Positions 31,419 to 49,780 are shown, numbered from the stretch's first letter. The stretch: DNA of 64,000 bases from an uncultured Candidatus Entotheonella sp. (GCA_958295825.1 OY282375.1:248001-312000); one strand, 5' to 3'. Program-made: numbers and translations. Notes: generated from the letters alone by a model not told the origin.

Positions 31419-31471
31419 GCTCATTCCCCCCCTGCGCCGATGGCGTGTGAGGTTACGCCTTGGAGCCCAAG

Positions 31472-32377: not shown

Positions 32378-32583
32378 GCCGGTCTCCTTTTTCCTTTCTT
32401 TCTGTAGTCTCCCAGGGGCATGGAGAGGGAAGAGAATAACCTGCGCCGCAGCGTGTCATCATAACATAATGTCCGGGCAGCGTGGATTATGAAGCGTGTT
32501 AGCTCATGGCCATGCTTCGACGTATAATCTGACCTTTCACCGTCCCGCGCAATCCAATCACAGGCGAGAGCCACGAGGAGATC

Positions 32584-33048
32584 ATGGCAAACCGACACGC
32601 ACGCTTCACGACGTCCAAGGGTGTATTTCGGATAGAACTGAGCGAGGACAAGGCGCCCAAGACGACGGACAATTTCGTCAAATTGGTTGAGTCTGGCTTC
32701 TACGACGGCCTCATCTTTCACCGCGTCATTGACGGCTTCATGATCCAGGGCGGCTGTCCGCAAGGCACGGGAACGGGCGGCCCCGGTTATGCTATCGACG
32801 ACGAATTTCACCCCGAGTTGAAGCACGACGTTCCGGGTGTCCTTTCCATGGCCAACGCCGGGCCGAACACGGGCGGCTCGCAGTTCTTCATCACGCTTGC
32901 AGCCACCCACTGGCTGGATGAACGGCATGCCGTGTTTGGCAAAGTCGTGGAGGGGATGGAGGTTGTCAGCGCCGCCGGCCAGGTGGAAACGGACGGCAGC
33001 GACCGACCCCGCGAAGACGTGAAGATCAAGACGATAACGATTGAGTAG
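32584..33048 (+). CDS. Cyclophilin-type peptidyl-prolyl cis-trans isomerase
   Basis: Protein-folding enzyme of 154 residues without a signal peptide, so cytoplasmic. It has the cyclophilin core FHRVIDGFMIQGGCPQGTGT with the catalytic arginine, then SMANAGPNTGGSQFFITLAA and HAVFGKVVEGMEVV. The start is the ATG after CACGAGGAG. It is divergent from the PhyH operon, with a 206-bp gap between, and lies 25 bp before a secreted YceI-like gene on the same strand. Confidence 0.93.
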   Translation: MANRHARFTTSKGVFRIELSEDKAPKTTDNFVKLVESGFYDGLIFHRVIDGFMIQGGCPQGTGTGGPGYAIDDEFHPELKHDVPGVLSMANAGPNTGGSQFFITLAATHWLDERHAVFGKVVEGMEVVSAAGQVETDGSDRPREDVKIKTITIE

Positions 33049-33073
33049 ACAAATACCACAGAGGAGCGAAATT

Positions 33074-33766
33074 ATGAGCAGGAAGCCCCTGGGAAGCCGC
33101 GTTGTCGGAGCGGTCTTGGCGATGGCGCTGCTGGTCATGGGGGGAACCGCCCCTGGGTTTGCTGAAACCCTGCGCGTCGTCAGCGGCGAGGTCGGCGCCA
33201 CCGGCTTCAAGATGAAACCCACGGCCCGCATGGGCGTTCCGGTGCGCGGCGCCATCAACATCCAGCCGGGTCAGGTCGAGTTCGATCCCGAGACCGGCGC
33301 GATGAGCGGCTATCTGGTTCTGGATATCACGTCGTTCAACACCGGCAACCCCGCCCGGGACGCCAACATTCGCCAAGGCGCTTTTTTGGTCAATCAGTTC
33401 GCCTCGTGGACCCTCTCGCCCTTGAGTCTGACCGGTTATGATCCCGCCTCATCCGACCCGATGCAGACCGCCGATCTTGCCGTTCGGATCGCGGCCATGG
33501 GCCTTTCCGAGGATCGCACGATCAAGGTGCGCGTCGCCACGTCGGACGACCGGGTGATGATCGCCAGCGCCGCCACCCACTATATGCACGCCGGCGACTC
33601 ACCCCTTGCCCAACTCATCGTTTCCGGCATTGAACGCGTCTGCCTGGCCTTCCACCAGGCGCCGTTTCCCAATATCCAGATGACCCTGGACGGCAACCCC
33701 GTCTCCGGTTTCGCCACCGCCGATTTCGCCATCGTTGATCTCTCCGTGACCTTGGCGCGCCAATAA
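33074..33766 (+). CDS. Secreted YceI-like protein
   Basis: A 230-residue protein with a signal peptide (VVGAVLAMALLVMGGTAPGFA, cleavage near AFA-type site after residue 33). The mature part reads as the YceI beta-barrel: NIQPGQVEFDPETGAMSGYL, VLDITSFNTGNPARDANIRQ and later SPLSLTGYD, matching the conserved alternation of the family that binds isoprenoid or amide lipids in the periplasm. The ATG follows GGAGCG. It is likely co-transcribed with the cyclophilin. A distant match; the family call is moderate. Confidence 0.65.
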   Translation: MSRKPLGSRVVGAVLAMALLVMGGTAPGFAETLRVVSGEVGATGFKMKPTARMGVPVRGAINIQPGQVEFDPETGAMSGYLVLDITSFNTGNPARDANIRQGAFLVNQFASWTLSPLSLTGYDPASSDPMQTADLAVRIAAMGLSEDRTIKVRVATSDDRVMIASAATHYMHAGDSPLAQLIVSGIERVCLAFHQAPFPNIQMTLDGNPVSGFATADFAIVDLSVTLARQ

Positions 33767-33801
33767 TCCGGCACAGAGCCAATCGATACAAAGGCGAGTT
33801 G

Positions 33802-35196
33802 ATGGCCTCGAAGAAAACACTCACCGCCAAGAACCTCGAAGTGCTGGGCGTCGAACGGCTTGCCGAGTTGCTGATCGAGATCACCACCGACGACGCTGCC
33901 GCCAAGCGCCGTCTCCGCCTCGAGCTGGCCGGCAGGGAAGGCCCGGCCGCGGTGGCGGGAGAAGTCCGCAAGCGGCTGGCGACGATCATGCGGTCCCATT
34001 CGTTTGTCGACCGGGAAAGAATGCCGAGTCTGGCCCGCGACCTGGAAACGCAACGCCGCGCCATTGTGGATCAGGTGGCGAAACACGACCCGGTGGAAGG
34101 CTTGGACCTGATATGGCGCTTCCTGGAGTTGGCCGCACCGGTCTTTGAGCGTTGCGACGACGGCGACGGCATGGCAGGCGACGTTTTTGGCCTTGCCGCC
34201 CATGACCTCGGGGAGATTGCGAAAAAGGCGAAGCCCAGCCCGACGACCCTCGCCGACGATGTTTTCCAGGCGCTGGTCGCGAATGACTACGGCCAGTACG
34301 ACCCATTGATCTACGTTCTTGCGCCCGTCCTCGGGCGCAAGGGGCTGGAGCGCTTGAAGCAACGCATGCGGTCTGAGCAGCCGGCTGACAGCAGGGTGCG
34401 CCGTCTGGCGTTGAGGGATGTCGCAGATGCGCAAGGCGACGTCGATGCCTACATCGCTCAATATGACGAGGAAACGAGGAAGATTCCGAAGATTGCGGTG
34501 GAAATCGCCCGCCGGCTGCTTGCGGCGGACAGAGCGGACGAGGCGTGGCAGGCGCTCGAAGCTGCCGGGCCCAGGTCGGCCGTTCGGCACGCCCAGGGAT
34601 GGCTGGACTTCGAGTGGGAGGATGCCCGGATCGAGGTGCTCGAGGCGCTCGGCCGTCACGAGGATGCCCAGCAAGCCCGCTGGACCTGCTTCGAGCACTC
34701 GTTGTCGCCCGAGCACCTGCGCGCCTATCTCGAGCGATTGCCCGACTTCGACGACATCGAGGCGGAGGAGCGGGCGCTCGATCACGCGCAAAATTTCGAG
34801 AACCCGGTCCCGGCACTGGCATTCCTGGTGTCGTGGACCTCTCTGGACAGGCCGTCCCTAGCGTCACGGCCGGCTCTGGGCAGAGCGGCCGAGCTTGTTT
34901 TCCGTCAAGCGGCGAATCTGGACGGCAACCACTACGAGATCCTGAACCCGGTTGCGGATGCGTTGTCTGGCGCCCATCCGCTCGCCGCCACGCTGGCGCT
35001 TCGCTCAATGATCGATTTTGCGCTGACGCGCGCCAGGTCCAGCCGCTACAAGCACGCCGCCCGCCACCTCCTGACGTGTTCGAGTCTCGCTTCGGCTATC
35101 GATGACTTCGGCGCTTTCGAAACACACGAGGCCTATGAGGCCAGACTTCGCCAGGAGCACGGCAGGAAAAACTCGTTCTGGAACCAGGTCGGGTAG
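33802..35196 (+). CDS. Helical-repeat protein, DUF6880-like
   Basis: A 464-residue soluble, mostly helical protein starting MASKKTLTAKNLEVLGVERL with LAELLIEITTDDAAAKRRLR, the opening of the DUF6880 family. The rest is made of helix pairs resembling TPR or HEAT units (LADDVFQALVANDYGQYDPL, ADRADEAWQALEAAGPRSAV). The C-terminus (LAATLALRSMIDFALTRARS and HLLTCSSLASAI) also fits that family. It has no signal peptide or catalytic motif. The ATG at 33802 is preferred to the TTG 3 bp upstream. The function is unknown. Confidence 0.7.
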   Translation: MASKKTLTAKNLEVLGVERLAELLIEITTDDAAAKRRLRLELAGREGPAAVAGEVRKRLATIMRSHSFVDRERMPSLARDLETQRRAIVDQVAKHDPVEGLDLIWRFLELAAPVFERCDDGDGMAGDVFGLAAHDLGEIAKKAKPSPTTLADDVFQALVANDYGQYDPLIYVLAPVLGRKGLERLKQRMRSEQPADSRVRRLALRDVADAQGDVDAYIAQYDEETRKIPKIAVEIARRLLAADRADEAWQALEAAGPRSAVRHAQGWLDFEWEDARIEVLEALGRHEDAQQARWTCFEHSLSPEHLRAYLERLPDFDDIEAEERALDHAQNFENPVPALAFLVSWTSLDRPSLASRPALGRAAELVFRQAANLDGNHYEILNPVADALSGAHPLAATLALRSMIDFALTRARSSRYKHAARHLLTCSSLASAIDDFGAFETHEAYEARLRQEHGRKNSFWNQVG

Positions 35197-35718
35197 CCCG
35201 GCGAGACCGTCGCCGGATCCGACCGACCCCCCAAAAAGGTGAGGGTTGCAATCGTGCTCCCTGCGTCTGTCTGTTCCGGGCGTCGTCGCCATGACGTGGT
35301 GGCGCCCTGCGGCAGCGCCCGGATGCTCAACGGCAACTGGTAATGATACACCATGACGCGCCGCGGCACTGCGGGCATCGAAGCAGAGAGGGCAGGCCGC
35401 GGGTGGCGCGGTTGGGGATACGGGGCCAGTGGAGTGGAGGTGAAGGGAGATTTGAGACAGGGGGCTATTTTTTTGACGCCTTATTTGCAATTATGAATTG
35501 ACAACCCGTTTATTGCGATATAAGGTCACGTTCGCATGAGAATCGGGTGGTTCTCTTGGGCTGTTTGCTCTGAACGCTGATGGGCGGCGCCTTGAGGCGC
35601 GGCGCCGGGGTTCAGGGCAAACGATGCTCAGCCATGGTTATGATGAAGTGCCGCTGGAGGGCACTGTCAAGCAGTGTCAGGTGTAAGCGTACCATATCTA
35701 GACTGGGAGGATTGACGA
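35197..35718. other. Intergenic region upstream of the caspase-lipoprotein cluster
   Basis: No gene is recognised in 522 bp. The first half is GC-rich like the upstream gene and the second half shifts toward AT. A GC hairpin GGCGCC-TTGAGGCGC-GGCGCC lies near 35586-35606 and a small one (CACTG-TCAAG-CAGTG) near 35662. A candidate promoter is listed separately. GGGAGG precedes the ATG of the lipoprotein gene. Confidence 0.5.
35498..35524 (+). promoter_or_regulatory. Candidate promoter for the lipoprotein/caspase cluster
   Basis: TTGACA at 35498-35503 and TATAAG at 35519-35524 with a 15-bp spacer, shorter than ideal. The start of the lipoprotein gene is about 190 bp downstream, leaving a long leader with the GC hairpin. 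This could be an attenuated or regulated leader. Confidence 0.35.
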
Positions 35719-36864
35719 ATGCAGAGCGTGAAGCGGAAAGGCGCTAAGGTAAGTCGTTTGATACTGAGCTGGATCATGTGCCTCCTGATGGCGGGGCTTA
35801 TTGCGGGATGCCCAGACCCAACCGAACTGCAAAAAATCATTGATAACCGGATTGATGCCCGGGTTACTAATGAACGGATTGATAACCGGATTGATGCCCG
35901 GGTTACTAATGAACGGATTGATAACCGGATTGATGCCCGGGTTACTAATGAACGGATTGATAACCGGATTGATGCCCGGGTTACTGAGATTAATACCCGG
36001 ATTGCTGAGGCTGGCAGTCCACTGGATTACGTGATCGACTACAGCTTCGCCAACTTTGACCCTGTTAAAGTAGAAGCAAACGTAGACCCTATTGTAATAG
36101 AATCAGCGGCAAAGGAACGAAGGCGGCGAGAGGCATTCTTCGAAGATCTACTAGCATGGCTTATATACGCAAGAGACAGTAAGGGCTTTCAGCTCGCCTG
36201 GACAAAACCAGTGCAGATTTCTGATCCTGTTGAGGGATACATCGAAAAGGTCACGCTGACAAATGCACAGGCAGTAAGCGATAAGAGGACGCATCAAGAT
36301 CATATAGAAGCCGTAATCAAAAAACTGGCGGAGAGAGCCGGCGACCCAAACCTAGCCGTTCCCGTTCGGAAGGACCCTTCTGATACTCCTCTTCCAGTCC
36401 GACGTCTGACGGTAGTGCATAACGCCACTTCTGGCGTTGGAGGCACGAAATGTGACCAGAAAGCGACTTATGAAGTTCTAGGCATCCCCAAGGAGCACGC
36501 CCTAGCTTATGTCTCCATGCCGACTAGAGATATTAAGCAACCGCTTGAGCGGGATGAGGAGGGTAGATACAAGTTTGACGTTCCCCTTGAATGCGGAGAG
36601 GTAATTACCAGAGATTTCGCATACATTCTGGTGAAATTGTTGGAGCCTGTAGTTGCTCAGTACCGTGAGCTGGAGATTGTTGGGACAGGGGTAAAGAAAG
36701 ACATACAGATACCTGTCCCTCTGATTGAAGGAGCGCCAGCTTGCCCGCCACATCATGTTCCTGTTACACCGCCACGTCCTTTTCCTAGGGAATCGGCCGA
36801 TTACTTTATGCGCGAACTCGTTGAGAAGTGTGAAACAGAATCAGGGTGGGATCAGTATAGCTAA
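35719..36864 (+). CDS. Repeat-containing lipoprotein of unknown function
   Basis: A 381-residue protein exported and lipidated at C31: the N-terminus is basic, a hydrophobic core (LILSWIMCLLMAGLIAG) follows, and the lipobox is LIAGC. Residues 41 to about 96 are a run of the 13-residue unit IDNRIDARVTNER, which would form a helical stalk. After it come a charged globular part (SAAKERRRREAFFEDLLAWL and LTVVHNATSGVGGTKCDQKA) and a proline-rich end (PVTPPRPFPR). GC content is near 45-48%, well below the neighbours, which suggests later arrival. It opens the co-directional caspase cluster. I do not recognise the globular domain. A tail-like fragment repeats after the stop (see 36865-37105). Confidence 0.75.
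   Translation: MQSVKRKGAKVSRLILSWIMCLLMAGLIAGCPDPTELQKIIDNRIDARVTNERIDNRIDARVTNERIDNRIDARVTNERIDNRIDARVTEINTRIAEAGSPLDYVIDYSFANFDPVKVEANVDPIVIESAAKERRRREAFFEDLLAWLIYARDSKGFQLAWTKPVQISDPVEGYIEKVTLTNAQAVSDKRTHQDHIEAVIKKLAERAGDPNLAVPVRKDPSDTPLPVRRLTVVHNATSGVGGTKCDQKATYEVLGIPKEHALAYVSMPTRDIKQPLERDEEGRYKFDVPLECGEVITRDFAYILVKLLEPVVAQYRELEIVGTGVKKDIQIPVPLIEGAPACPPHHVPVTPPRPFPRESADYFMRELVEKCETESGWDQYS
35839..35985 (+). repeat. Perfect 39-bp tandem repeat inside the lipoprotein gene
   Basis: Copies begin at 35839, 35878 and 35917 and are identical at every base; a fourth begins at 35956 and matches for 30 bases. Each encodes IDNRIDARVTNER in frame. The unit is itself made of near-repeats (ATTGATAACCGG, ATTGATGCCCGG). 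Identity at silent positions means recent expansion or homogenisation. Not a CRISPR array: there are no spacers. Confidence 0.95.
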
Positions 36865-37105
36865 ACTCGGTGAGGCGTGTAAAAAACCAGGGTGGGATCA
36901 GTGGCGGCATAGCGAGCTTTAGTGGAGAGTAATCCCATAGCAAGGCGCAGGGCTCGGTTCCTCGGTGCGCTCGCTATACGATGCTCTGTGCGCCGTTCGC
37001 CTGATCGCTTCAGGAGCCTCAAGGAAAAGGACTGTAGAGGGCAGGAATACTAGCAGCCTTTTCTTACGGTGTTCATGTAAAGCCCGGTAAGAAGGAGGGG
37101 AGGCC
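36865..37105. other. Decayed spacer with relic repeats
   Basis: Just after the lipoprotein stop, ACTCGGTGAGGCGTGTAAAA and CAGGGTGGGATCAGT repeat, with changes, the last 45 bp of that gene, and in another frame encode KLGEACKKPGWDQW beside the gene's own ELVEKCETESGWDQYS. Further on (36983-37018) GTGCGCCGTTCGCC is joined to TGATCGCTTCAGGAGCCT. Both stretches occur, far apart, in the following caspase genes. It therefore looks like a deletion scar of another gene copy. No intact gene is present. Confidence 0.55.
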
Positions 37106-37897
37106 TTGAACGTCCCATGTTTCAAAGACGTAGGAGGCCGCCTCCTGGTACTCATCGCCCTCATCACAATGGCCTGTGTACCGTTCGCCACGGCGGCGGA
37201 CCGGGCCTTGATCGTCGGCGTCGGAGATTACGCGCACGTGGGGGACCTGTCAGGAATCAATCTGGACGTCGACATGATGTGGGAGGCGGCGGAGCGATTA
37301 GGGTTTCGGGAGATCAAAACCCTGATGGATCAGGAAGCGACCTATGATCGCTTCAGGAGCCTCTTTGAGCGCTGGTTGATCGAGGGCACCCGGGCAGGCG
37401 ACCGCGTCCTGTTGTATTTCAGCGGCCACGGGGGATGCGTGGCGGACCAGAACGGCGACGAATCCGACGGCAAGGACGAAGCCTTGGTGCTGTACGATAC
37501 GCGGCTCCGGGGCGACACGATGGAACGGTCTCGGCGCGGTGACGAGCTCCACGCCTTGTTGCAGCGCTTGTCCGGCCGCCGCGTGCTGGTGTTGATTGAC
37601 GCCTGCCACAGCAGCACCAGTCACGTGGACGATCCAAGTATTGCCTTTCTCGCCGCGGCGGCCGACTCCGAGTTGGTTCGGGCCACCCCCGCAGGCAGCT
37701 TGTTTACCCTGGGGTTGCACAAGGCCATCAACGATACGGTCAGCGCGCGGCAATCCCTGACCCTGCAGGCGCTCAGGGACGAAGTGGACAATTTCATCAG
37801 GAGCAAATTTGACTCGGGTGACGTTTACGGCGAACCGCATCAGCCGCAATTCTGGGGCAATCCTGATTTTCCCATATATGACCCTACTCAGGACTAA
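37106..37897 (+). CDS. Exported caspase-like protease (peptidase C14), short copy
   Basis: A 263-residue protein with a signal peptide (LLVLIALITMACVPFATAAD) and one caspase domain. The dyad is H108 in YFSGHGG and C167 in LIDACHSS. An acidic pocket-like loop DQNGDESDGKDEA follows the histidine. It is a duplicate of the next gene, with about 200 identical bp around the histidine. It lacks the 57-residue loop that follows TSH in the other copy and lacks the C-terminal DUF4384 domain, ending at FPIYDPTQD. The start is TTG at 37106 behind AAGGAGGGGAGGCC; the neighbour has ATG at the same place two bases later. Substrates are unknown; metacaspase-like enzymes cleave after Arg or Lys. Confidence 0.82.
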   Translation: MNVPCFKDVGGRLLVLIALITMACVPFATAADRALIVGVGDYAHVGDLSGINLDVDMMWEAAERLGFREIKTLMDQEATYDRFRSLFERWLIEGTRAGDRVLLYFSGHGGCVADQNGDESDGKDEALVLYDTRLRGDTMERSRRGDELHALLQRLSGRRVLVLIDACHSSTSHVDDPSIAFLAAAADSELVRATPAGSLFTLGLHKAINDTVSARQSLTLQALRDEVDNFIRSKFDSGDVYGEPHQPQFWGNPDFPIYDPTQD

Positions 37898-37912
37898 AGG
37901 AGGGGAGGCCTT

Positions 37913-39358
37913 ATGAACGTTCCATGTTTCAAAGACACAGGAGGCCGCCTCCTGGTACTCATCGCCCTCATCACAATGGCCTGTGTGCCGTTCGCCACGG
38001 CGGCGGACCGGGCCTTGCTCGTCGGCGTTGGAGATTACAAGCACGTGAGCGGCCTGCCGGGGATCCATCTGGATGTCGACATGATGCGGGAGGCGGCGGA
38101 GCGATTAGGGTTTCAGGAGATCAGAACCCTAATGGATCAGGAAGCGACCTATGATCGCTTCAGGAGCCTCTTTGAGCGCTGGTTGATCGAGGGCACCCGG
38201 GCAGGCGACCGCGTCCTGTTGTATTTCAGCGGCCACGGGGGATGCGTGGCGGACCAGAACGGCGACGAATCCGACGGCAAGGACGAAGCCTTGGTGCTGT
38301 ACGATACGCGGCTCCGGGGCGACACGATGGAACGGGCTCTGCGCGATGACGAGTTCCACGCCTTGTTGCAGCGCTTGTCCGGCCGCCGCGTGCTGGTGTT
38401 GATTGACGCCTGCCACAGCGGCACCAGTCACAAGGGTTTTAATACGCGCGCGAACAGAAGCCTCGGCGTCAAGGCGGTAAGAGTAGGACGGGTGAGGGAA
38501 AGATGGGAGACCTACACAAAGAGCCTTGACTGCGAAGCCAGGTCCTGGACGCCGGGCAACAAGACGTTTGAGGTCGTGGACGACATAGGAGAACCGGGGG
38601 TTGCCTTTCTCGCCGCGGCGGCCGACCACGAGTTGGCTCTGGCCACCCCCGCAGGCAGCTTGTTTACCCTGGGGTTGCACAAGGCCATCAACGATATGGC
38701 CAGCGCGCAGCAATCCCTGACCCTGCAGGCGCTCAGGGACGAAGTGGACAAATTCATCAGGAGCAAAATCGACTCGGGTGACGTTCACGGCGAACCGCAT
38801 CAGCCGCAATTCTGGGGCAATCCTGCCTTTCCCATACGTCCGGCTGCCCCTTCCGACGGAGATGGGCCGATATGGCGGCGACTGGTAGGCCTCGCAGACC
38901 ACGCCCACCGCATCACCCCATTATCCATCACGGCGAATCAGGGTCGATATCGGCTTGGCGACGAGCTCGTTCTTACCATCGACATCCCGCACGCCGGCTA
39001 CCTGAACGTGGTGAACGTCGGGTCGAGGGATAACGCCACCGTGTTGTTCCCCAACCGGCATCACCGCGATAACTACGTGCGGGGCGGCACGCTGACGCTT
39101 CCCACCCCTGAGATGCGGTTCAGGCTCCGGGCCACGAGGCCGACGGGTCGGAGCTTGAACGTGGCGTTTTTAACGGAGGAAAGAGTGGACCTGTTTGAAG
39201 AAGGGGTCGGGGGGCGAGACAGAAACGGCAATTTTGACGTCCTGTTGGCCGCGCTCTCCGCCAAGGCGAAAGACGCGATCGCAAGATCGTTTGCGGTGAC
39301 GTCCGCCAATGGACGCGGGGCGGCAGGTGGCAAGGTGATTGTTGAGGTGGTCCGATGA
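37913..39358 (+). CDS. Exported caspase-like protease with C-terminal DUF4384 domain
   Basis: A 481-residue protein: signal peptide to about residue 31, caspase domain about 32-300 with H108 (YFSGHGG) and C167 (LIDACHSG), a loop of about 57 residues after the cysteine (KGFNTRANRSLGVK and following), then a DUF4384 domain near 345-425 with YRLGDELVLTIDIPHAGYLN and TVLFPNRHHRDNY. The C-terminus has a helix AALSAKAKDAIARSF. DUF4384 is often found joined to caspase or other peptidase domains in bacterial envelopes. AAGGAGGGGAGG precedes the ATG. It lies 15 bp after the short copy and 15 bp before the next gene, so it is in one operon. Probably acts in the periplasm. Confidence 0.87.
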   Translation: MNVPCFKDTGGRLLVLIALITMACVPFATAADRALLVGVGDYKHVSGLPGIHLDVDMMREAAERLGFQEIRTLMDQEATYDRFRSLFERWLIEGTRAGDRVLLYFSGHGGCVADQNGDESDGKDEALVLYDTRLRGDTMERALRDDEFHALLQRLSGRRVLVLIDACHSGTSHKGFNTRANRSLGVKAVRVGRVRERWETYTKSLDCEARSWTPGNKTFEVVDDIGEPGVAFLAAAADHELALATPAGSLFTLGLHKAINDMASAQQSLTLQALRDEVDKFIRSKIDSGDVHGEPHQPQFWGNPAFPIRPAAPSDGDGPIWRRLVGLADHAHRITPLSITANQGRYRLGDELVLTIDIPHAGYLNVVNVGSRDNATVLFPNRHHRDNYVRGGTLTLPTPEMRFRLRATRPTGRSLNVAFLTEERVDLFEEGVGGRDRNGNFDVLLAALSAKAKDAIARSFAVTSANGRGAAGGKVIVEVVR

Positions 39359-39373
39359 AAAAGGAAGCCCGAT

Positions 39374-39946
39374 ATGCCTCAGGGAAGCAAACACGCCCGT
39401 TTCATCGTGTACGTGTTGGTTGGCCTCACGTGTCTATCCGTTCCTGGCGCCTCCCAGGCGCAACCCGAACCACGGCAAGACGACCGTCTGGCAGCACGAA
39501 CGTCGTTACGTGAGGTGATCCTGCTGACCGAGGAAGAAGCCGGTCAACTGCGGATGACGGCGGAGCAACTGAGGTTGGAAGTCCAGACGAAGACAAAGTC
39601 GCTCAAAAGCATCTCCGGTCCCCACATCGTGTTCCAGAAACCTGACCTCATCGAAGGCGTCGTGAGGACCACCACACCACTCGACCTCTCCGTCGCCTTC
39701 AAACCCAATCGCGCCCCGGTCAATATGGAATCGCTCGCCGTTCGGGCCCGAAAGGGCATCTTCAAAAAGAACCTGACGGATATTGTCATGCCCTACGTGA
39801 TACCCGATGGCGATGGCGGCTTTAGCTTCGCCATTGAGAGCGCAGTCATTCCCCGTGGCAACTTCCGCATCGAGATCACCATTGCCGACCAGAACGGGGA
39901 AAGGACCATTCAGGGGTACCATTTCCAGATCACCAGGCAATTTTGA
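39374..39946 (+). CDS. Exported protein of unknown function in the caspase cluster
   Basis: A 190-residue protein with a signal peptide (FIVYVLVGLTCLSVPGASQA, cleavage near residue 29). Residues about 40-80 are a charged helix (LTEEEAGQLRMTAEQLRLEV). The rest is beta-rich: GPHIVFQKPDLIEGVVRTTT, LDLSVAFKPNRAPVNMESLA and NFRIEITIADQNGERTIQGY. The C-terminal part resembles a single immunoglobulin-like or copper-chaperone-like sandwich, but I do not recognise a family. It sits 15 bp after the DUF4384 caspase and 24 bp before the third caspase, so a common role is likely. Confidence 0.7.
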   Translation: MPQGSKHARFIVYVLVGLTCLSVPGASQAQPEPRQDDRLAARTSLREVILLTEEEAGQLRMTAEQLRLEVQTKTKSLKSISGPHIVFQKPDLIEGVVRTTTPLDLSVAFKPNRAPVNMESLAVRARKGIFKKNLTDIVMPYVIPDGDGGFSFAIESAVIPRGNFRIEITIADQNGERTIQGYHFQITRQF

Positions 39947-39970
39947 AAGCGGTCTAGGGAGGGAAGTCCT

Positions 39971-40987
39971 ATGCGGGTCTGTGTCACCGTTGTCTTGCTG
40001 TTGATGCTGGCTGCGACCGCTTCATGGGCCGAACGGCGGGTGGCCTTGGTGATCGGCAACGCTGACTACACTTGGCAAAACCGTCTTCCTGGAACGGTGC
40101 GGGACGCGCGCGCCATGGCGGCCAAGCTCGAAGCGCTGGGATTCGAGACCACGCTGAAACTCAACGTCGAAGAGAACGCCTTACACAACGCCCTGGCTGA
40201 TTTTGGAATGGTCCTGAACCGTGGAGATGTCGGGCTGGTGTATTTTTCCGGTCACGGCGCCCAGGGGGAAAGCGGCGAGAACTATCTGATTCCACTGGAT
40301 GCGCAGGCCCTCTCGCATCGCCTGCCTACGGTGCAAGGCATCCTGAAGATGATGGAAAGGGCCAGCAATCGGGTGAACATCGTCATCTTGGACGCCTGCC
40401 GCAACGTGCCTGGTTTTGCGGGGCGCCGGGGTCTTGCCGCACAGGGACTCGGCAAGAGTTTTCAGCCTGTCCCGGTCGACGTCAGACCCAATGAAGACGT
40501 CATTGTCATTGATGACGAAAATGAACGTTTTGCCGTTCGCCAGGGTAAGGCCGTCCTCTTTGCGGCTGCACCGGGGGAAGCGTCGTGGGAAGGGCAAAAG
40601 TGTCCCGAATATGGCGGACACGGGTGCTTTACGGGCGAGCTACTGAAGGCGCTGGACGAACCCGGTCTGGAGTTGTACAAGGTCTTCCGGAGGGTCCGCG
40701 CCGGCGTTCTTCGGAGCACTCGCAACGAGCAAGCGCCCTGGTTCAATGTGGCGATGACCGGTGATTTCTACTTCAATTCCAGGTCCTTCCGTCGCGGCGC
40801 TGGTGGCAGCGATCGAATCTGGCGCGTCGGCGAGATGATACCTTCCCACGTAACGGACCCGGAAGAGATCGAAAGGCTTTTGGAAATTCGAGCGTTCCAG
40901 GCGCGGCGGCTTGCGAAAACCATGACTATCTCATTCGGAGAGGCGGCGTGGATGCTCTATGGCAAGGAAGCGAACCGCCTCAGATAG
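39971..40987 (+). CDS. Third exported caspase-like protease
   Basis: A 338-residue protein with a signal peptide (VCVTVVLLLMLAATASWA) and a caspase domain starting RRVALVIGNADYTWQNRLPG. The dyad is H95 in YFSGHGAQG and C143 in ILDACRNVPG. It differs strongly from the two tandem copies and belongs to the DACRNNP type common in exported bacterial caspase homologues. After the domain, RSTRNEQAPWFNVAMTGDFY is followed by a C-terminal helical stretch (EEIERLLEIRAFQARRLAKT). It precedes the DUF3160 gene by 31 bp. Confidence 0.85.
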   Translation: MRVCVTVVLLLMLAATASWAERRVALVIGNADYTWQNRLPGTVRDARAMAAKLEALGFETTLKLNVEENALHNALADFGMVLNRGDVGLVYFSGHGAQGESGENYLIPLDAQALSHRLPTVQGILKMMERASNRVNIVILDACRNVPGFAGRRGLAAQGLGKSFQPVPVDVRPNEDVIVIDDENERFAVRQGKAVLFAAAPGEASWEGQKCPEYGGHGCFTGELLKALDEPGLELYKVFRRVRAGVLRSTRNEQAPWFNVAMTGDFYFNSRSFRRGAGGSDRIWRVGEMIPSHVTDPEEIERLLEIRAFQARRLAKTMTISFGEAAWMLYGKEANRLR

Positions 40988-41018
40988 AACTTGGGAATTT
41001 CCGCGAGGAGGACGACGT

Positions 41019-43295
41019 ATGGCGACAGGGAATCGAGCTGCAGGCCGCCACCTATCGATGAGGCGCTGTTGGCGCTTGGCGTTCCTGTTGGGCGTGGTCT
41101 GCATGCTGGCCATGCCGGGACAGGCAGCGGCCGATTTCCTCATGAGTATACATCCTCAAGAACGCAATCCTCCGGAATATTTACCACCTCCCCCGGAATT
41201 GTCCGAGGGATTGTTCGAAGTCTACGCGCGCAACAAGCAGGAGGGCGTGCCCAACTACATCACGGAAGACGTACTGCTGCTGAGTTACGGCATGATCCGC
41301 GTCGCCGTCGGCAAGGCCCTGGAACGCGAGCGCTACGTCGAGGCGGCGCGCCAGTTGGTCGAGGGCTTGTCGGCTCAGGTATTGGCGCGCCAGGCGGACG
41401 AGGTGAACCAGGCCAACCGCGATTACCTGGCCGTGCTGTCGGCCCTCGCGCAGGGACACGCCCAGATTGCCGGCGCCGGTGATCCGACACGCGCCCAGGC
41501 CGAGCTGGAACGGGTACTGGCGGCGCGCACCTTGGCGCACTCGCCGTTGTGGGGCCGGATGATCGACTATACCCAGTTCAGGCCGCGGGGCCATTACCGC
41601 GGCGACGCCGAGCTGGAGCGCTACTTCCGCACGGTACGCTATGCCGGCGTAGCCCTGTTCGCCATCACGGCCAGTCAGGCGACCGGCGTGAGCGACGCCT
41701 TGGCTGAGCGCATGACCGCGCAGGCGGTGCGGCTGGCGCACCTCATCGAGCACGATGCCGACCTGCGCAGGGTCCATCGAGACCTGATGCACAGCCTCAC
41801 GTGGCGTGTTGGCCCGCCGGAGGACCTCCCCAATGATGTCCTGCTGACAATCGACGCCGAACCCGCCGAAACGTTTCGCTCGCGTCTACTGGCGCAGGCG
41901 AGGTCAGCAGGCTTGCAGCCGCGCATCATCGCGGGCGCGGTGGACGCAAGCCGGCTCGAAGACGGCGTGACCGTGGCCGACGTGATGACCGGCTGGCGCC
42001 TGCTGCCGCAGCGCTACACGCCGGAATCCGCCGCCTTTCAGCAACTCGTTTTTGATGCTACCGGTGACTTCCAGGGCGAGATGCCGCTGCCGTTCGGCTC
42101 GGCCCTGATCATCGGCAGGCTGGTCAAGGGCTTTCCGTTGCTGGCCGAGCTCATGGCGATGTGGGGTAGTCGGGAGGCGGCTTCTCAACTCTACGAGCAG
42201 GGCGAAACGGACTTCGCAGGCTACCGGGAGGCTCGCGCGCAGGCCCAGCAAGCGCTCGACGCCGCCAGCGGGTTGAGCGCCTTGCATCAGCAGTTGATAC
42301 AGACGGGTTTGCAGTCTGCGGCGTCGTCAGACCGCGAGCGGAGCTTCTTGCGGTTGAGAAGGATGGGTTTGTGGCCGGCGCCGGTGTCAGACCGCCTGAC
42401 GGCCCTGCGCGCCTTCTGGACGTGGCAGCGTTATGCCGCGCTGCTGTCCGCCAAGCAGTCGTACACCATGGCCGGCAAGGGGCTTGCTCTCGCCCCACCG
42501 CGGCCCGGCGCCTGGCTGGAGCCATCGTTGCTCCTGTATCAGGCTCTGGCGCGGGTGGTGGAGGGCCACCGGCGCGAAACACCGCACGCCGCCTGGGATG
42601 CCTTTGCCGGGATTCTCGACCGCGTCATTGCCATTGCCTCCCGCGAGCATCTCCGCGAGCATCTCCAGGTCGGCCTGACGGCCGCGGATGAACAGTTCCT
42701 CAACGGTCTCGATACGGCATTGATGGCCCTGACGGGCGGTCCGGATGCGCCGGTCGTGGTGGACATCCACACCAATCCGGCCAGCCGGGAGGTGTTGCAG
42801 GAAGCCACCGGCAAGGCGCGTCTGGTCTCTTATGCGGTCGCCGGGGACCAAATCGCCCGCGGCGCCCGGTTCACCCAGTGTGAGTTCAAGCAGCCCATGT
42901 CGAACCGCCTCGACGATGCCGCCTGGAAGGACCTGCTGGCGTCGTCGCCCTCCTTTGCCTGCGGCCCGTTCGGCATCGCGGCCAAACTCCATGCGCGCTT
43001 GGTCGACCTGATTCGGGTCTACGAAGCCAACGGCCTCGAGGGCATCCGGGCGTATGAAGCCGAGCATCAGCTCGACCTGCTGCAGGGCGACCGGATCGCG
43101 GTCGTCATTATCGCGGTATCGGAAGACATGGGCACCCTTCTCAAGGGATGGATCGCCAGCGCGGACGGCACGGTGAAAATGGATTTCGATAACACCCGCT
43201 TCCTCGCCACCCTGCCCGTTACGATGCTTAAACGGTTCGTCATGCTCGTGCCGGACGCCGCGTGGCGGCGCGTGACACTTCGCTGGCCTAAGTGA
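41019..43295 (+). CDS. Exported DUF3160 protein
   Basis: A 758-residue protein. The signal peptide is long (basic RAAGRHLSMRRCWR, then LAFLLGVVCMLAMPGQAAA). The body matches the DUF3160 layout: NYITEDVLLLSYGMIRVAVG at the start, paired helical arms with LERVLAARTLAHSPLWGRMI and DYTQFRPRGHYRGDAELERY, then MGLWPAPVSDRLTALRAFWT and, near the end, VVVDIHTNPASREVLQEATG. The Y-Q-R-GHY segment is the family's most constant part. Its biochemical function is unknown; members are secreted or lipoproteins. ATG 41019 has GAGGAGG upstream. Its place between caspase and DUF4384 genes suggests it is either a substrate or a structural partner. Confidence 0.8.
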   Translation: MATGNRAAGRHLSMRRCWRLAFLLGVVCMLAMPGQAAADFLMSIHPQERNPPEYLPPPPELSEGLFEVYARNKQEGVPNYITEDVLLLSYGMIRVAVGKALERERYVEAARQLVEGLSAQVLARQADEVNQANRDYLAVLSALAQGHAQIAGAGDPTRAQAELERVLAARTLAHSPLWGRMIDYTQFRPRGHYRGDAELERYFRTVRYAGVALFAITASQATGVSDALAERMTAQAVRLAHLIEHDADLRRVHRDLMHSLTWRVGPPEDLPNDVLLTIDAEPAETFRSRLLAQARSAGLQPRIIAGAVDASRLEDGVTVADVMTGWRLLPQRYTPESAAFQQLVFDATGDFQGEMPLPFGSALIIGRLVKGFPLLAELMAMWGSREAASQLYEQGETDFAGYREARAQAQQALDAASGLSALHQQLIQTGLQSAASSDRERSFLRLRRMGLWPAPVSDRLTALRAFWTWQRYAALLSAKQSYTMAGKGLALAPPRPGAWLEPSLLLYQALARVVEGHRRETPHAAWDAFAGILDRVIAIASREHLREHLQVGLTAADEQFLNGLDTALMALTGGPDAPVVVDIHTNPASREVLQEATGKARLVSYAVAGDQIARGARFTQCEFKQPMSNRLDDAAWKDLLASSPSFACGPFGIAAKLHARLVDLIRVYEANGLEGIRAYEAEHQLDLLQGDRIAVVIIAVSEDMGTLLKGWIASADGTVKMDFDNTRFLATLPVTMLKRFVMLVPDAAWRRVTLRWPK

Positions 43296-43531
43296 CCCAG
43301 AGCGCACAGGAGGAGAAGCCATCTGCGCCTGACCCTGACTACGCTTGCTGAGCGGGTTTGTCCTTGTCAGCAGTGCCGTGATCCCCAAGGACGCAGTACA
43401 GATCGGGACTGGATTCCAATGACGGGAACGACGATGACGCGCTAGACGACCTGGAAGGGATTCTGGGGGAAATTCTGCGGAAGCAGCAATATACCTGAGC
43501 AACCAGCTTACATTTCAAGAAGGGCTGTCCC
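43296..43531. other. Spacer with a gene relic
   Basis: The plus strand has an open frame without start, roughly 43360-43498, ending DALDDLEGILGEILRKQQYT and a stop, with an acidic lead SNDGNDDD. The end looks like an amphipathic C-terminal helix, so this may be the tail of a lost gene. GGAGGAG at 43308-43314 has no start codon in place, another sign of deletion. Nothing else is seen. Confidence 0.4.
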
Positions 43532-44569
43532 ATGCAAGCAATCGAATGGATTACCCGTGCAACCCGGTATCTGACTCGCACGTGGCCGCACGTTTTCGCC
43601 CTGGTGCTCGCCGCTGTCGTGTCGTCCACGCCGGTGCAGGCCGACGTGGAACTCGGCATCGAGGAGATTGGAGAAAAGGCCATTCGCGCCGAGACCCCCG
43701 ACGCCGAGCCGCTGCGCGTCAAGCTGGAGCCGGTCAAGGCGTCGTTCAAGGTGGACGAGCCGATTCGCTTCAACATTCGCGGCAACAAACCCTTCTTCCT
43801 GTACATCTATAGCGTGGACAAGGAAACCGACGCGGTTACGCTCCTGCTCCCGACCAAGGAAGGTCAGCGGCACAACAAATATCCGGCCAACCGGACCCTG
43901 GCCGTTCCCAACAAGGGCGAAATCGAATTGCTCGCCGATGAGCCCGGACGCGAAAGACTGCTCATGGTCGCCAGCACCAAGTATCTGCCGGTCAAGTCGA
44001 AGTGGTATCGCAAAGGCGCCGATTATTACGTGGGCAAGACCGCGGATTTCGAGAAGGAATTCGCCGACAAGGGTATCCGCGTGCGCGGGCCGGACAAAAC
44101 CCGCGACGACAAGGTGTTGGTCAAGACGGTGATGGTGCGGATTGACGGCGCGCAACCGGGCCGTGGCGACAGCCCTTCGGCGGCGACCAACCACGTGTGG
44201 CTGACCACCAGGGGTAACCAGCAGGACTACGCCATCGGCGATCCGATTGAAGCCGTGTTTGGTTCGGGACAAGATGGCTGGATTCACCTGTACGTGGTGG
44301 AGCCGAATGGCCGATACAACCGCCTGAAATCCTATGCCGTCAAGGAAAACCGGACCTATACGGCGAAGGCGATGGCCTCCGACCCGGCTGGCAAACACGC
44401 CTTGGTGGCGGTCTACAGCGAAGATGACGGACCCGCCCAGGCGCCGTCCGACAGCGGTGTCAAAGCCCTGGCGCTTCTGGATGCGGATGCGTCGCCTAAA
44501 GGGGTGGAGTTGGTGGAGGACAAACCGAAGCCGATGGCCGTGTATCGTTTCTATATCTCCGACGAGTAA
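43532..44569 (+). CDS. Exported protein with two DUF4384 domains
   Basis: A 345-residue protein with a signal peptide (VFALVLAAVVSSTPVQA, cleavage near residue 37). The first DUF4384 domain, about residues 68-150, reads VDEPIRFNIRGNKPFFLYIY and TLLLPTKEGQRHNKYPANRT. The second, about 225-310, reads YAIGDPIEAVFGSGQDGWIH and LYVVEPNGRYNRL. Both have the strand pattern of the domain in the caspase at 37913-39358. No protease domain is attached, so this may be a binding or scaffold partner for the caspase-DUF4384 protein. It ends the signal-peptide part of the cluster. Confidence 0.82.
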   Translation: MQAIEWITRATRYLTRTWPHVFALVLAAVVSSTPVQADVELGIEEIGEKAIRAETPDAEPLRVKLEPVKASFKVDEPIRFNIRGNKPFFLYIYSVDKETDAVTLLLPTKEGQRHNKYPANRTLAVPNKGEIELLADEPGRERLLMVASTKYLPVKSKWYRKGADYYVGKTADFEKEFADKGIRVRGPDKTRDDKVLVKTVMVRIDGAQPGRGDSPSAATNHVWLTTRGNQQDYAIGDPIEAVFGSGQDGWIHLYVVEPNGRYNRLKSYAVKENRTYTAKAMASDPAGKHALVAVYSEDDGPAQAPSDSGVKALALLDADASPKGVELVEDKPKPMAVYRFYISDE

Positions 44570-44798
44570 ATCCGGGCCGCCACACACCGTGCAGTGCCTA
44601 CCCTACAGGCTCAGGCGTGTCTGACCTGTACGGTAGGCGCGTATCTTGTCATACAGATCATAACTCGCACTGCTGGCAGCCATTTCAATCATCAACCCCG
44701 GCGACCCTTCTACATCGCCATCCGCACTCAAGCAAGAACGTCCGCCCGCTTCCGAACCCGCCTCCCGAGCACGACCTGAACCTGCTATACTCCCCGCC

Positions 44799-46388
44799 AT
44801 GCGCTTCTTCAACACCACAGGACCCGTCGTTGCGGCGGATCATTATTGCGTCCCGCCGCTGGGCAGGCTTGACCTCGAAGACCTGCTGACGCTGATCCGG
44901 GACAAGCGGTACTTCGTCCTGCATGCCCCGCGGCAGACGGGCAAGACCTCAGCGCTGCTGGCTTTGCAGGACCTGCTGAACAGCGGCGCCGCGGGTGCCT
45001 GTCGCTGTGTGTATACGAATGTCGAAACCGCACAGGCGATGCGGGAAGACACCCTGGGGGCGCTGCGGGCGATTCTCGGTCAATTGGGTTCGCGGGCGCG
45101 TCGGACCCTGGGCGAGAATTTCCTGAGCGAAGCGTGGCCCGGCATTCTGGAGACCTTCGGCCCGGCCGGTGCGCTTCAGGAATCCTTGGCGCAGTGGGCC
45201 GAAGCTGACCGCAAGCCGCTGGTGCTGCTCATCGACGAGGTCGATTCGTTGCCGGGCGACACGCTTCTGTCCGTGCTCAGGCAGCTTCGAGCGGGATACG
45301 ATCTGCGCCCGGCAGGCTTTCCCCAAAGCGTCGTCCTGTGTGGGGTTCGTGACGTGCGGGACTATCGCATCCATGCGCGTTCCGAGAACACGATTATCGC
45401 CGGTGGGAGCGCCTTCAACATCAAAGCCGAGTCGCTGCGGTTGGGGGACTTCTCGCGTGCTGAGGTGCTGTCGCTACTGGGCCAGCACACCGAGGAAACC
45501 GGGCAATCGTTCACCGAAGAAGCATCGCACAGGATATGGACGCAAACGCAGGGCCAGCCGTGGCTGGTGAATGCCCTCGCGGCACAAGCCTGTTTCCGAA
45601 GCCAGCGCGGACGCGACCGTGATCGGCCCATCACGGCAGATGACGTCGTCGAGGCCCAAGAGCAGCTCATTCTCCGCCGAGAAACCCACCTGGACCAATT
45701 GACGGACAAACTGCAGGAGGACCGGATTCGCCGCGTCGTCGAGCCCTTGTTGAGCGGCGGCGGTGCCGACGAGCGTAGTTTCATGGCGCGTGACGTCGAA
45801 TACGCGCGTGATTTGGGACTGCTTGCGCTGCATCCGCCGCTGCGCATTGCCAATCCGATCTATATGGAAGTCGTGCCGCGCGAGTTGAGTTGGGTTGTGC
45901 AAGAGGAGTTGGAGGACGAGCAGCGCATCGCCTGGTGCGTTGGCGGTGAAGGCGAACTGGATGTAGTCACCCTCATCGGCGCCTTTCAACAATTCTTCCG
46001 GGAGAACTCGGAGCACTGGTTGCAACGGTTCGAGTACCAGGAGGCCGGCCCGCAACTCTTGTTGCAGGCGTTCTTGCAGCGCATCGTCAACGGCGGGGGG
46101 CGCATCGAGCGCGAGTACGGCCTTGGCCGAGGGCGTACCGACCTGCTGATCGTTTGGCCTTGGGCAGAACGGACGGATCGGTTCGTTGTCGAGTGCAAAA
46201 TTCTGCGCAACAGTCTGGAGCGCACGGTGCAAGACGGCCTTGAGCAAACGGCGGTTTACATGGACCGCTGCGCCGCGCAAGAGGGCCATCTCGTCATCTT
46301 CGACCGTCGCGCGGGGAGATGGGAAGACAAGGTGTTTCACCGCATGGAGGCGGCAGGGGAGAGGGAAATTCACGTGTGGGGGATGTGA
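44799..46388 (+). CDS. AAA-like ATPase with C-terminal PD-(D/E)XK nuclease domain
   Basis: A 529-residue cytoplasmic protein. The ATPase part has Walker A APRQTGKTS with K49, Walker B VLLIDEVDS with D146-E147, and a C-terminal winged-helix region about 270-350. A restriction-endonuclease-like domain follows with GRGRTDLLIVWPW and FVVECKIL, giving the D...ECK triad near 446-468. This is the layout of the AAA_14/AAA-ATPase_like plus DUF1703-type proteins scattered through bacterial genomes. It is 229 bp beyond the DUF4384 gene and has no signal peptide, so its link to the exported proteins is uncertain. A near-perfect hairpin follows the stop. Confidence 0.8.
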   Translation: MRFFNTTGPVVAADHYCVPPLGRLDLEDLLTLIRDKRYFVLHAPRQTGKTSALLALQDLLNSGAAGACRCVYTNVETAQAMREDTLGALRAILGQLGSRARRTLGENFLSEAWPGILETFGPAGALQESLAQWAEADRKPLVLLIDEVDSLPGDTLLSVLRQLRAGYDLRPAGFPQSVVLCGVRDVRDYRIHARSENTIIAGGSAFNIKAESLRLGDFSRAEVLSLLGQHTEETGQSFTEEASHRIWTQTQGQPWLVNALAAQACFRSQRGRDRDRPITADDVVEAQEQLILRRETHLDQLTDKLQEDRIRRVVEPLLSGGGADERSFMARDVEYARDLGLLALHPPLRIANPIYMEVVPRELSWVVQEELEDEQRIAWCVGGEGELDVVTLIGAFQQFFRENSEHWLQRFEYQEAGPQLLLQAFLQRIVNGGGRIEREYGLGRGRTDLLIVWPWAERTDRFVVECKILRNSLERTVQDGLEQTAVYMDRCAAQEGHLVIFDRRAGRWEDKVFHRMEAAGEREIHVWGM

Positions 46389-46411
46389 AAGCACTGGCAA
46401 CGTTCGTCATT

Positions 46412-46453
46412 GCCACGGCCCCGGGAACCCTGAGGGGCTGCCGGGGCCGTGGC
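46412..46453. terminator. Bidirectional hairpin between convergent genes
   Basis: GCCACGGCCCCGG (46412-46424) pairs without mismatch with CCGGGGCCGTGGC (46441-46453) around a 16-nt loop. It lies 23 bp after the ATPase stop and 24 bp after the stop of the minus-strand DUF1501 gene. There is no clear T-run, so Rho or mRNA-end protection may be involved. Confidence 0.65.
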
Positions 46454-46477
46454 TTGTGAGGTTGCGGTATTGCCCCG

Positions 46478-47728
46478 CTACGCGAACACGTCGAACGGCT
46501 TGAAATCGCCGTCCAGGAGAGTGTGGGTGTCTTCGTAGCCGAGCCAGCCGTTGATGGCGGTGGCGTAGACGCGGCGGAAGTCGGTGGTGTAGATGAGATT
46601 GTCACCGGGGTCGAGCTCGGTGAGGCTGGGAAGCTGGCCGTAGTGGCCGCCCTGGACGGGCTTGCCGATCATGAACATGAGGCCGGCGGCGCCGTGGTCG
46701 GTGCCGAGGCTGGTGTTTTCCGGCACCCGGCGGCCAAACTCGGAGAAGAGCAGCATCACCACGTCGTCGGCGCGGCCGATACGTTCCAGGTCGGCCATGA
46801 AGCCGGCAACGGCGTCGGCGGCGTAGGTGAGTAGCCGCTGGTGCAGGTTGCCTTGATGCACGTGGGTGTCGAAGGCGTTGTTGCGGAACGTGGTGTAATA
46901 CAGCCGCGTCGGCATGTCGGCGTGGATCAGCGCGGCGATCTTGGGCAGATCGAGCGGCACGATGCCGTAGTCGATCGGCGAGCTGTAATCAGCCCACGCC
47001 TGCCGCACCAGCGCCGAGGCGTCGAGGGCGCTCTGGGCGATGTTGAGCAGGTAGTCCCGTGAGGGATTGGCGGCGCCGTTGGCGTCGGCGACGTGCTGGA
47101 ATAACGGCTGTTGCGAATAGAAGCCCTCGCGGGCGAATTTGTCCGGTGCGTCAAAAACCACGGGCACGTGGTCGCGGCTGCGCACCGCCAGCGATTGGGT
47201 GGCGTCGATGTTGACAATGTAGTTCGACGCGCCGCCCGGCTTGACGGCGTCCGCCAAGCGGCCTAGCCAGCCGTACTCCTCGCCGCTGTTGGGCGCCGCG
47301 GTATGCCAATAGGCCATAGACGTGAAGTGTGAGAACGAGGGATTCTCGTAGCCGCAGCCGTGCACCACGGCCATCTTGCCATCCTTGTACAGTCGTTCGA
47401 ATCCTACCAAGCCCGGATTGAAGCCAAAGTGGTCGTCGATCTTGAGCACCTTCTCCGGCTTGATGCCGATCGTCGGGCGATGTCGGTAGTACGCATCGTC
47501 GCCGTAGGGAACGAGGGTGTTGAGCCCGTCGTTGCCGCCGGACAGCTCCAGAACTACCAGAATGCGGTTTTCGTTATAGCCATCGCTTATTCGCTTCACC
47601 ATGGCATCAGCCGTCCGCGCAAAGAAGGGCGGCAGTCCGAGGCCGCCGGCTGCGCTCACGCCGAGTAAGCCGGCCTTCAGCGCGTTGCGCCGGGTCAGGT
47701 CCTGCAATGCCGAATACTTGTTGCTCAT
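46478..47728 (-). CDS. DUF1501 protein with twin-arginine signal
   Basis: A 416-residue exported protein. The N-terminus LTRRNALKAGLLGVSAAGGL is a Tat-type signal (RR-N-A-L-K). The core follows the sulfatase-like fold of DUF1501: VVLELSGGNDGLNTLVPYGD, then MAVVHGCGYENPSFSHF, VMLLFSEFGRRVPENTS with GTDHGAAGLMFMIG near the end. H and D residues in GTDHG and FSEFGRR probably bind metal as in alkaline phosphatase relatives. It lies 30 bp after a DUF1800 gene on the same strand; this pair occurs together in many bacteria and is of unknown function. Confidence 0.88.
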   Translation of the reverse strand: MSNKYSALQDLTRRNALKAGLLGVSAAGGLGLPPFFARTADAMVKRISDGYNENRILVVLELSGGNDGLNTLVPYGDDAYYRHRPTIGIKPEKVLKIDDHFGFNPGLVGFERLYKDGKMAVVHGCGYENPSFSHFTSMAYWHTAAPNSGEEYGWLGRLADAVKPGGASNYIVNIDATQSLAVRSRDHVPVVFDAPDKFAREGFYSQQPLFQHVADANGAANPSRDYLLNIAQSALDASALVRQAWADYSSPIDYGIVPLDLPKIAALIHADMPTRLYYTTFRNNAFDTHVHQGNLHQRLLTYAADAVAGFMADLERIGRADDVVMLLFSEFGRRVPENTSLGTDHGAAGLMFMIGKPVQGGHYGQLPSLTELDPGDNLIYTTDFRRVYATAINGWLGYEDTHTLLDGDFKPFDVFA

Positions 47729-47758
47729 GACGATTTCTCCTTGTTGAAAAAGCGGGGA

Positions 47759-49600: not shown

Positions 49601-49710
49601 GGAGGTGCCTCCTGTAGTTTGGTGGATTGGCGTCAGAGCCTCAGCAGAGGCCAGCGACTTGCGGAAAGGTCATTGGACGGGAAGCATACGTGGCGGTTTA
49701 TATAGCATAC

Positions 49711-49752
49711 GGCGGCCGGAATTGCCAAAACGTCTGCACAACTCCGGCCGCC
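49711..49752. terminator. Hairpin between the second dctP and the DUF1800 gene
   Basis: GGCGGCCGGA (49711-49720) and TCCGGCCGCC (49743-49752) are exact complements around a 22-nt loop. It follows the minus-strand dctP stop at 49781 by about 29 bp. The T-run on that strand is poor, so it may act with Rho. Confidence 0.5.
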
Positions 49753-49780
49753 ATATTTCATGCTCCGGCGTATGCTGACG

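Follow-up and report, generated by a model that had tools for sequence, protein, structure and literature searches.

We propose, as a tentative reading, that an accessory genomic island of an uncultured Candidatus Entotheonella sp. encodes a module of exported caspase-family proteases, the core of which would be formed by a metacaspase-like protease carrying a DUF4384 domain (g3), a DUF4384 protein devoid of a protease domain (g7) and a divergent DUF3160 protein (g6), with g2 as a truncated copy of g3. In this possible scheme, cutting after Arg/Lys would be restrained by g7 and g6, and the module would act in conflict or regulated lysis. Since a diverged second copy is present in the same genome and similar enzyme-partner pairs are encountered in other phyla, the data suggest a real yet uncharacterised envelope protease module.

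An accessory island carries eight co-directional genes

The window, i.e. the whole 64-kb stretch of DNA analyzed, corresponds to C1:248001-312000 of a 4.29-Mb single-contig genome (G000). Within it, ORF calling recovered the eight co-directional ORFs (g1–g8, positions 35719-46388) that had been reported in a preliminary description of this DNA. The island and its genes are as follows:

33758..46412, no strand: accessory genomic island of 12.65 kb, which the same-genus genome G001 lacks
33799..35196, + strand: DUF6880 gene (PF21810, 1.6e-171), inside the insertion, ninth gene of the island
35719..36864, + strand: g1, predicted lipoprotein with a 13-aa repeat stalk (lipobox IAGC)
37106..37897, + strand: g2, predicted exported metacaspase-like protease (PF00656, 1.8e-17)
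37913..39358, + strand: g3, predicted exported metacaspase-like protease bearing DUF4384 at its C-terminus, core (PF00656, 1.1e-18; DUF4384, 1.3e-15)
39374..39946, + strand: g4, predicted exported protein, function unassigned (signal-like N-terminus)
39971..40987, + strand: g5, predicted exported paracaspase-like caspase with DACRN at its active site (PF00656, 1.8e-34)
41019..43295, + strand: g6, predicted exported divergent DUF3160 protein, core (PF11369, 3.5e-62)
43532..44569, + strand: g7, predicted exported DUF4384 protein that lacks a protease domain, partner in the core (PF14326, 1.7e-18)
44799..46388, + strand: g8, predicted cytoplasmic AAA ATPase with a PD-(D/E)XK-like C-terminus (AAA_22, 1.2e-08; PDDEXK_9, 0.0076, weak)

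Using blastn, we compared window positions 31001-50500 with the G001 locus L147. The flanks of the island lie only 47 bp apart in G001, and the sequences flanking window positions 33757 and 46413 match G001 at 82-89%. Because of this 47-bp spacing, the 12.65 kb between the flanks evidently represents either an insertion here or a deletion in G001. The island sits between two convergent genes, and none of its own genes could be identified as encoding an integrase or transposase. A 14-bp direct repeat (CGTCGAACGGCTTG) is found near both island edges (window 33849-33862 and 46489-46502); it was rejected as a target-site duplication, since its position conflicts with the empty-site geometry. The product of the DUF6880 gene, presumably cytoplasmic, is probably unrelated to the proteases. 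Tight packing is restricted to g2-g6, and g1, g7 and g8 are each set apart by ~230 bp (g8 lies 229 bp downstream of g7).

Using a simple and crude signal-peptide rule, applied identically to the cluster and to background ORFs of the same genome, signal-like N-termini were scored in 7/8 cluster ORFs compared to 9/74 background ORFs, in agreement with the seven signal-bearing proteins initially described. By this count, the export pattern therefore exceeds chance, and export of the proteases is plausible. g8 is the ORF without a signal and is predicted to be cytoplasmic.

Caspase-like proteases of the island

The three caspase-like proteases proposed previously are borne out by PF00656 matches and a His/Cys dyad in g2, g3 and g5, with PF00656 scores of 64.2 bits for g2 and 68.3 bits for g3 (curated cut-off 21.4); their signal-like N-termini make export plausible. 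In g3 the dyad corresponds to H108/C167, which is invariant in alignments A1 and A6, as is D165; D54 is nearly invariant. By analogy with known metacaspases, we take D54 and D165 to be the acidic S1 residues, and g3 is predicted to cleave after Arg/Lys. According to a PDB search, the best solved relatives of g2 and g3 are GSU0716 (3bij) and yeast Mca1. Structure prediction yielded a confident caspase core for g3 (pLDDT ~80-95), with 3bij as best fold match, and a low-confidence DUF4384 model lacking any significant fold match (see below). The g3 linker (residues 175-228) is disordered in the model and contains 10 K/R in 54 residues, making this basic stretch a plausible autoprocessing site.

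g2 starts with a TTG codon, lacks the p20-p10 linker as well as DUF4384, and shares 93% nucleotide identity with g3 at a dN/dS of 0.76-0.93; it is, to all appearances, a recent tandem, truncated copy of g3. Because exactly the linker has been lost from a recent copy of g3, g2 would be either a constitutive variant or a decaying gene, and the near-neutral dN/dS could mean decay. The closest solved relative of g5 is the MALT1 paracaspase (E 3e-16 over residues 20-145), and g5, as a second type of caspase, probably belongs to the module as well.

Putative DUF4384 and DUF3160 partner proteins

As described initially, DUF4384 is shared by a protease and a non-protease partner, namely g3 and g7 (PF14326 scores of 57.6 and 66.9 bits, respectively; cut-off 27), an arrangement which recurs in other phyla. 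Of the tandem DUF4384 architecture claimed for g7, the first copy (72-150) is confident; the second (233-279) is a marginal match, with an i-E of 0.0025 when eight proteins were searched, and is left uncalled by Pfam. The structural model of g7 has a mean pLDDT of 54 and returned no fold match below 0.001, and a PDB search with DUF4384 and DUF3160 retrieved no significant solved relative.

The DUF3160 assignment of g6 was confirmed (PF11369, 211 bits; cut-off 25), and its likely start is ~41019 rather than 40959. Of 85 positions that ordinary DUF3160 proteins conserve, just 44 are retained by both g6 and its copy in a second cluster of this genome (cluster 2, see below); the HDT motif, lost from both, is replaced by YAA. 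The C-terminal tail of g6 is a separate domain common to the cluster 2 pseudo-caspase and to the pre-catalytic region of the cluster 2 subtilase. Its best meaningful PDB match is a subtilisin prosegment; because this match (E 0.6) is by itself non-significant, a prosegment-like inhibitor role is one that we can only infer for this tail. A scan of genome contigs for nameable g6 relatives gave none, and a plasmid search yielded only ordinary DUF3160 in Deinococcus, at ~27% identity.

A diverged second cluster in the same genome

A related cluster, larger than the one in the window, is located 3.1 Mb away:

C1:3404001-3444000 (L049 and L050), - strand: cluster 2, in the order ECF sigma factor, YfbK-type VWA protein, caspase-DUF4384, DUF3160, caspase with weak DUF4384, OmpA/TPR protein, pseudo-caspase, subtilase, DUF4384 protein, ATPase, caspase-peptidoglycan-binding-FGE protein

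The counterparts of g3, g6 and g7 occur in the same order in cluster 2, with identities of 49%, 69% and 80%, respectively. dN/dS values are ~0.2-0.5 for the g3, g6 and g7 pairs, 0.22-0.35 for the g6 and g7 pairs and 0.22-0.32 for g7; the g6 and g7 pairs are evidently under purifying selection. In addition, all matches of the genome to DUF4384 (5) and DUF3160 (2) are confined to the two clusters. The second cluster and these confined matches provide the strongest evidence that g3, g6 and g7 would belong together, and their grouping is unlikely to be due to chance because they recur together in a diverged second cluster. At the Cys position, the cluster 2 pseudo-caspase reads DGS (C to S, as read from the sequence). 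A clean empty site was also sought for cluster 2; in G001, however, the sequences that flank it are separated by 82 kb, so that this comparison provides no clean test.

Between the caspase-FGE genes of L050, repeated small ORFs (~138-160 aa) encode near-identical coiled-coil proteins with degenerate FEQVDKR-type repeats, and these ORFs precede several of the caspase-FGE genes.

Distribution in other genomes

We further analyzed DUF4384 and DUF3160 loci taken from high-scoring matches. A caspase was present in the same stretch (within about 10 kb, stretch up to 19.5 kb) at 10/40 DUF4384 loci versus 0/20 DUF3160 loci (Fisher p 0.023), which, given the thin genome sample, is to be read as an enrichment and not as a census. 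In an Acidiferrobacterales MAG (L155), a caspase-DUF4384 gene is directly followed by a gene for an exported DUF4384 protein. Similar direct g3 + g7-like pairs are also found in a Gemmatimonadetes MAG (L156), in a Desulfuromonadaceae MAG (L157), in a same-family genome (L053/L159) and in one further genome (G131, L202), which harbors four caspases with several DUF4384 genes. DUF3160 was seen beside caspases only in the two clusters described here, and a DUF3160-caspase link as a general rule was rejected on the basis of the 20 ordinary DUF3160 loci. Outside the present genome, the co-occurrence that the preliminary description had proposed to search for was recovered for caspase and DUF4384, and not for DUF3160 or, among 98 genomes, for g1 and g4.

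Genes of doubtful membership

The initial description of g1 as a lipidated stalk protein is corroborated by its lipobox and repeat stalk; no Pfam match was obtained for it. A perfect 39-bp tandem repeat (minisatellite, 3.8 copies) at window 35839-35985 within g1 encodes the 13-residue unit NERIDNRIDARVT and is likely variable in length. The codon usage of g1 is alien (GC3 of 0.47 versus 0.69-0.81 for the rest), and its membership in the module is doubtful. No Pfam or NCBIfam match was found for g4. Neither g1 nor g4 has relatives among 98 genomes, and both may be young genes or passengers.

With respect to g8, described previously as an ATPase-nuclease, the AAA domain is supported and the nuclease match is weak (PDDEXK_9). 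Three further copies (62-65% identity) are located at C1:66928, 121499 and 2961535 of the same genome, none of them near a caspase, and g8 is probably a bystander. This scattered four-copy AAA ATPase/PD-(D/E)XK family is possibly a mobile or independent defence-type gene. Overall, the earlier grouping of all eight genes into one system finds support for g3, g6 and g7, which recur in cluster 2, and fails for the multicopy, scattered g8; like g8, g1 and g4 are not supported as members.

Hypervariable C-termini on sibling caspases

Ten copies of an FGE-domain C-terminus with near-constant ends and hypervariable codons in between were observed in this genome:

C1:3408148-3435203 (L049/L050): FGE variable copies
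C1:2805662-2809867 (L213): FGE variable copies
C1:2594611 (L214): FGE variable copy
C1:3911361 (L052): FGE variable copy

In an alignment of nine copies, the 42 invariant sites are without A, and 21/22 hypervariable sites show A in some copy; such adenine-linked hypervariation has all the appearance of a DGR variable-region signature. Six of the ten copies are located on exported caspase genes. Neither a reverse transcriptase (RVT_1) match nor a DGR template repeat was found in this assembly (93.8% complete). A reverse transcriptase in G001 (L223, C1:2532221) was considered as the missing DGR enzyme and discarded because of its group-II-like QGSILSP motif and its position next to ORFs resembling cas1 and cas2; a second reverse transcriptase match in G001 is located at 3185870. 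Such variable regions are borne by cluster 2 caspases and by none of the window genes: it is next to cluster 2 that caspase-peptidoglycan-binding-FGE proteins are encoded whose hypervariable C-termini resemble those of sensors.

A tentative model and its alternatives

Features directly supported by the analysis are the exported-type N-termini, the intact dyads, the S1-type aspartates, the duplication of g3, g6 and g7, the island status and the recurrence of a caspase with a DUF4384 partner; beyond them, we infer that the proteins would interact physically and that g3 would be controlled as a zymogen, as well as what the module would target and do in the cell. In the proposed mechanism, g3 would be exported as a zymogen and activated by cleavage within its unstructured basic linker (residues 175-228), upon which active g3 would cut after Arg/Lys. 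A DUF4384-DUF4384 contact with g7 would position g3 and restrain it, and the prosegment-like domain of g6 may help to hold g3 in check. A surface or envelope signal would then free g3, resulting in envelope damage or remodelling and in a role in conflict or regulated lysis.

Conflict or regulated lysis appears more likely than housekeeping because the island is accessory, the duplicates are fast-evolving and the sibling caspases are coupled to hypervariable sensor domains, a reading which leans on cluster 2 rather than on the window. The ECF sigma factor and the YfbK-type VWA protein of cluster 2 fit a stress response equally well and, as these genes head the cluster, a role in envelope stress or protein processing competes closely with the favoured reading, albeit rather unlikely on its own. 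According to this explanation, the caspases would be periplasmic processing proteases, ECF-induced and VWA-tuned, with DUF4384 and DUF3160 as substrate adaptors and no self-killing. The position of both regulators directly upstream of the cluster 2 caspase-DUF4384 gene, as well as the OmpA/TPR protein and subtilase, would be accounted for; however, no regulator is encoded within the window cluster, and the sister genome G001 does without the entire island. Extracellular nutrient scavenging, comparable to that by secreted clan CD peptidases, would agree with several exported proteases including the cluster 2 subtilase, but the narrow specificity of metacaspase-like enzymes argues against it, and non-catalytic DUF4384 and degenerate DUF3160 partners on an accessory island would be unexpected for digestive enzymes, rendering this option highly improbable.

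It is also conceivable, although unlikely, that the genes are in part co-located by chance, the island carrying unrelated cargo and a functional link existing only between the caspase-DUF4384 gene and its DUF4384 neighbour. The multicopy nature of g8, the alien composition of g1, the missing relatives of g1 and g4 and the otherwise caspase-free context of DUF3160 are all compatible with such a view, whereas the duplication or retention of g3, g6 and g7 as a set, in the same order in cluster 2, speaks against it. At the other extreme, an envelope caspase cascade, scaffolded by DUF4384, restrained by a DUF3160 prosegment and linked to hypervariable surface sensors on sibling caspases, would constitute an undescribed extracytoplasmic recognition-and-killing system, which we regard as decidedly unlikely. 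As to the favoured protease module, a protease and a non-protease partner sharing DUF4384 would give this domain a testable docking role, its export would direct attention to the function of caspases in the envelope, and a link between proteases of this kind and diversified recognition would be provided by the neighbouring caspases that bear retroelement-type variable regions.

Comparison with known systems

Most discussion of bacterial caspases treats them as effectors of death or defence in the cytoplasm, and cytoplasmic caspase-linked defence includes gasdermin-linked and CRISPR-associated caspases. The genes described here share the caspase-family protease with such systems and differ from them by their export signals. 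Using Pfam, NCBIfam and PADLOC, we detected neither a gasdermin nor a Cas protein nor any further PADLOC defence partner among the eight genes, and assignment to a known defence system was discarded, PADLOC having returned only a generic 'caspase' model. Nevertheless, the contrast drawn in the preliminary description between action in the cytoplasm and action outside it was overstated, as caspase homologues with signal sequences had been described from prokaryotes as early as 2012 (Asplund-Samuelsson, PMC3501461). The caspase-peptidoglycan-binding and caspase-FGE-sulfatase proteins of that study are likely exported too, and the same fusions lie beside cluster 2, whereas the window genes bear DUF4384 instead of FGE or peptidoglycan-binding domains.

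Similar to the DGR-diversified conflict systems of multicellular bacteria and to DGR-targeted orthocaspases (PMC10907252, PMC7517822), cluster 2 caspases end in a C-type-lectin-like FGE domain with an adenine-linked hypervariable region; in contrast to those systems, this assembly yielded no reverse transcriptase or template repeat, and the window genes are without a variable region. The literature search found no paper describing the gene set as a whole, and DUF3160 is noted there solely as a secreted enzyme family. A close likeness also exists to orthocaspases and prokaryotic metacaspases, with which the window proteases share PF00656, the HC dyad, the acidic S1 positions and the DUF4384 fusion, DUF4384 having been recorded as an accessory domain of 23 cyanobacterial orthocaspases (PMC8283722, PMC7475262, PMC6426788). 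The orthocaspase papers list domain architectures rather than a gene set of the present kind, in which one island also encodes a second type of caspase, a divergent DUF3160 protein and, from a gene of its own, an exported DUF4384 protein.
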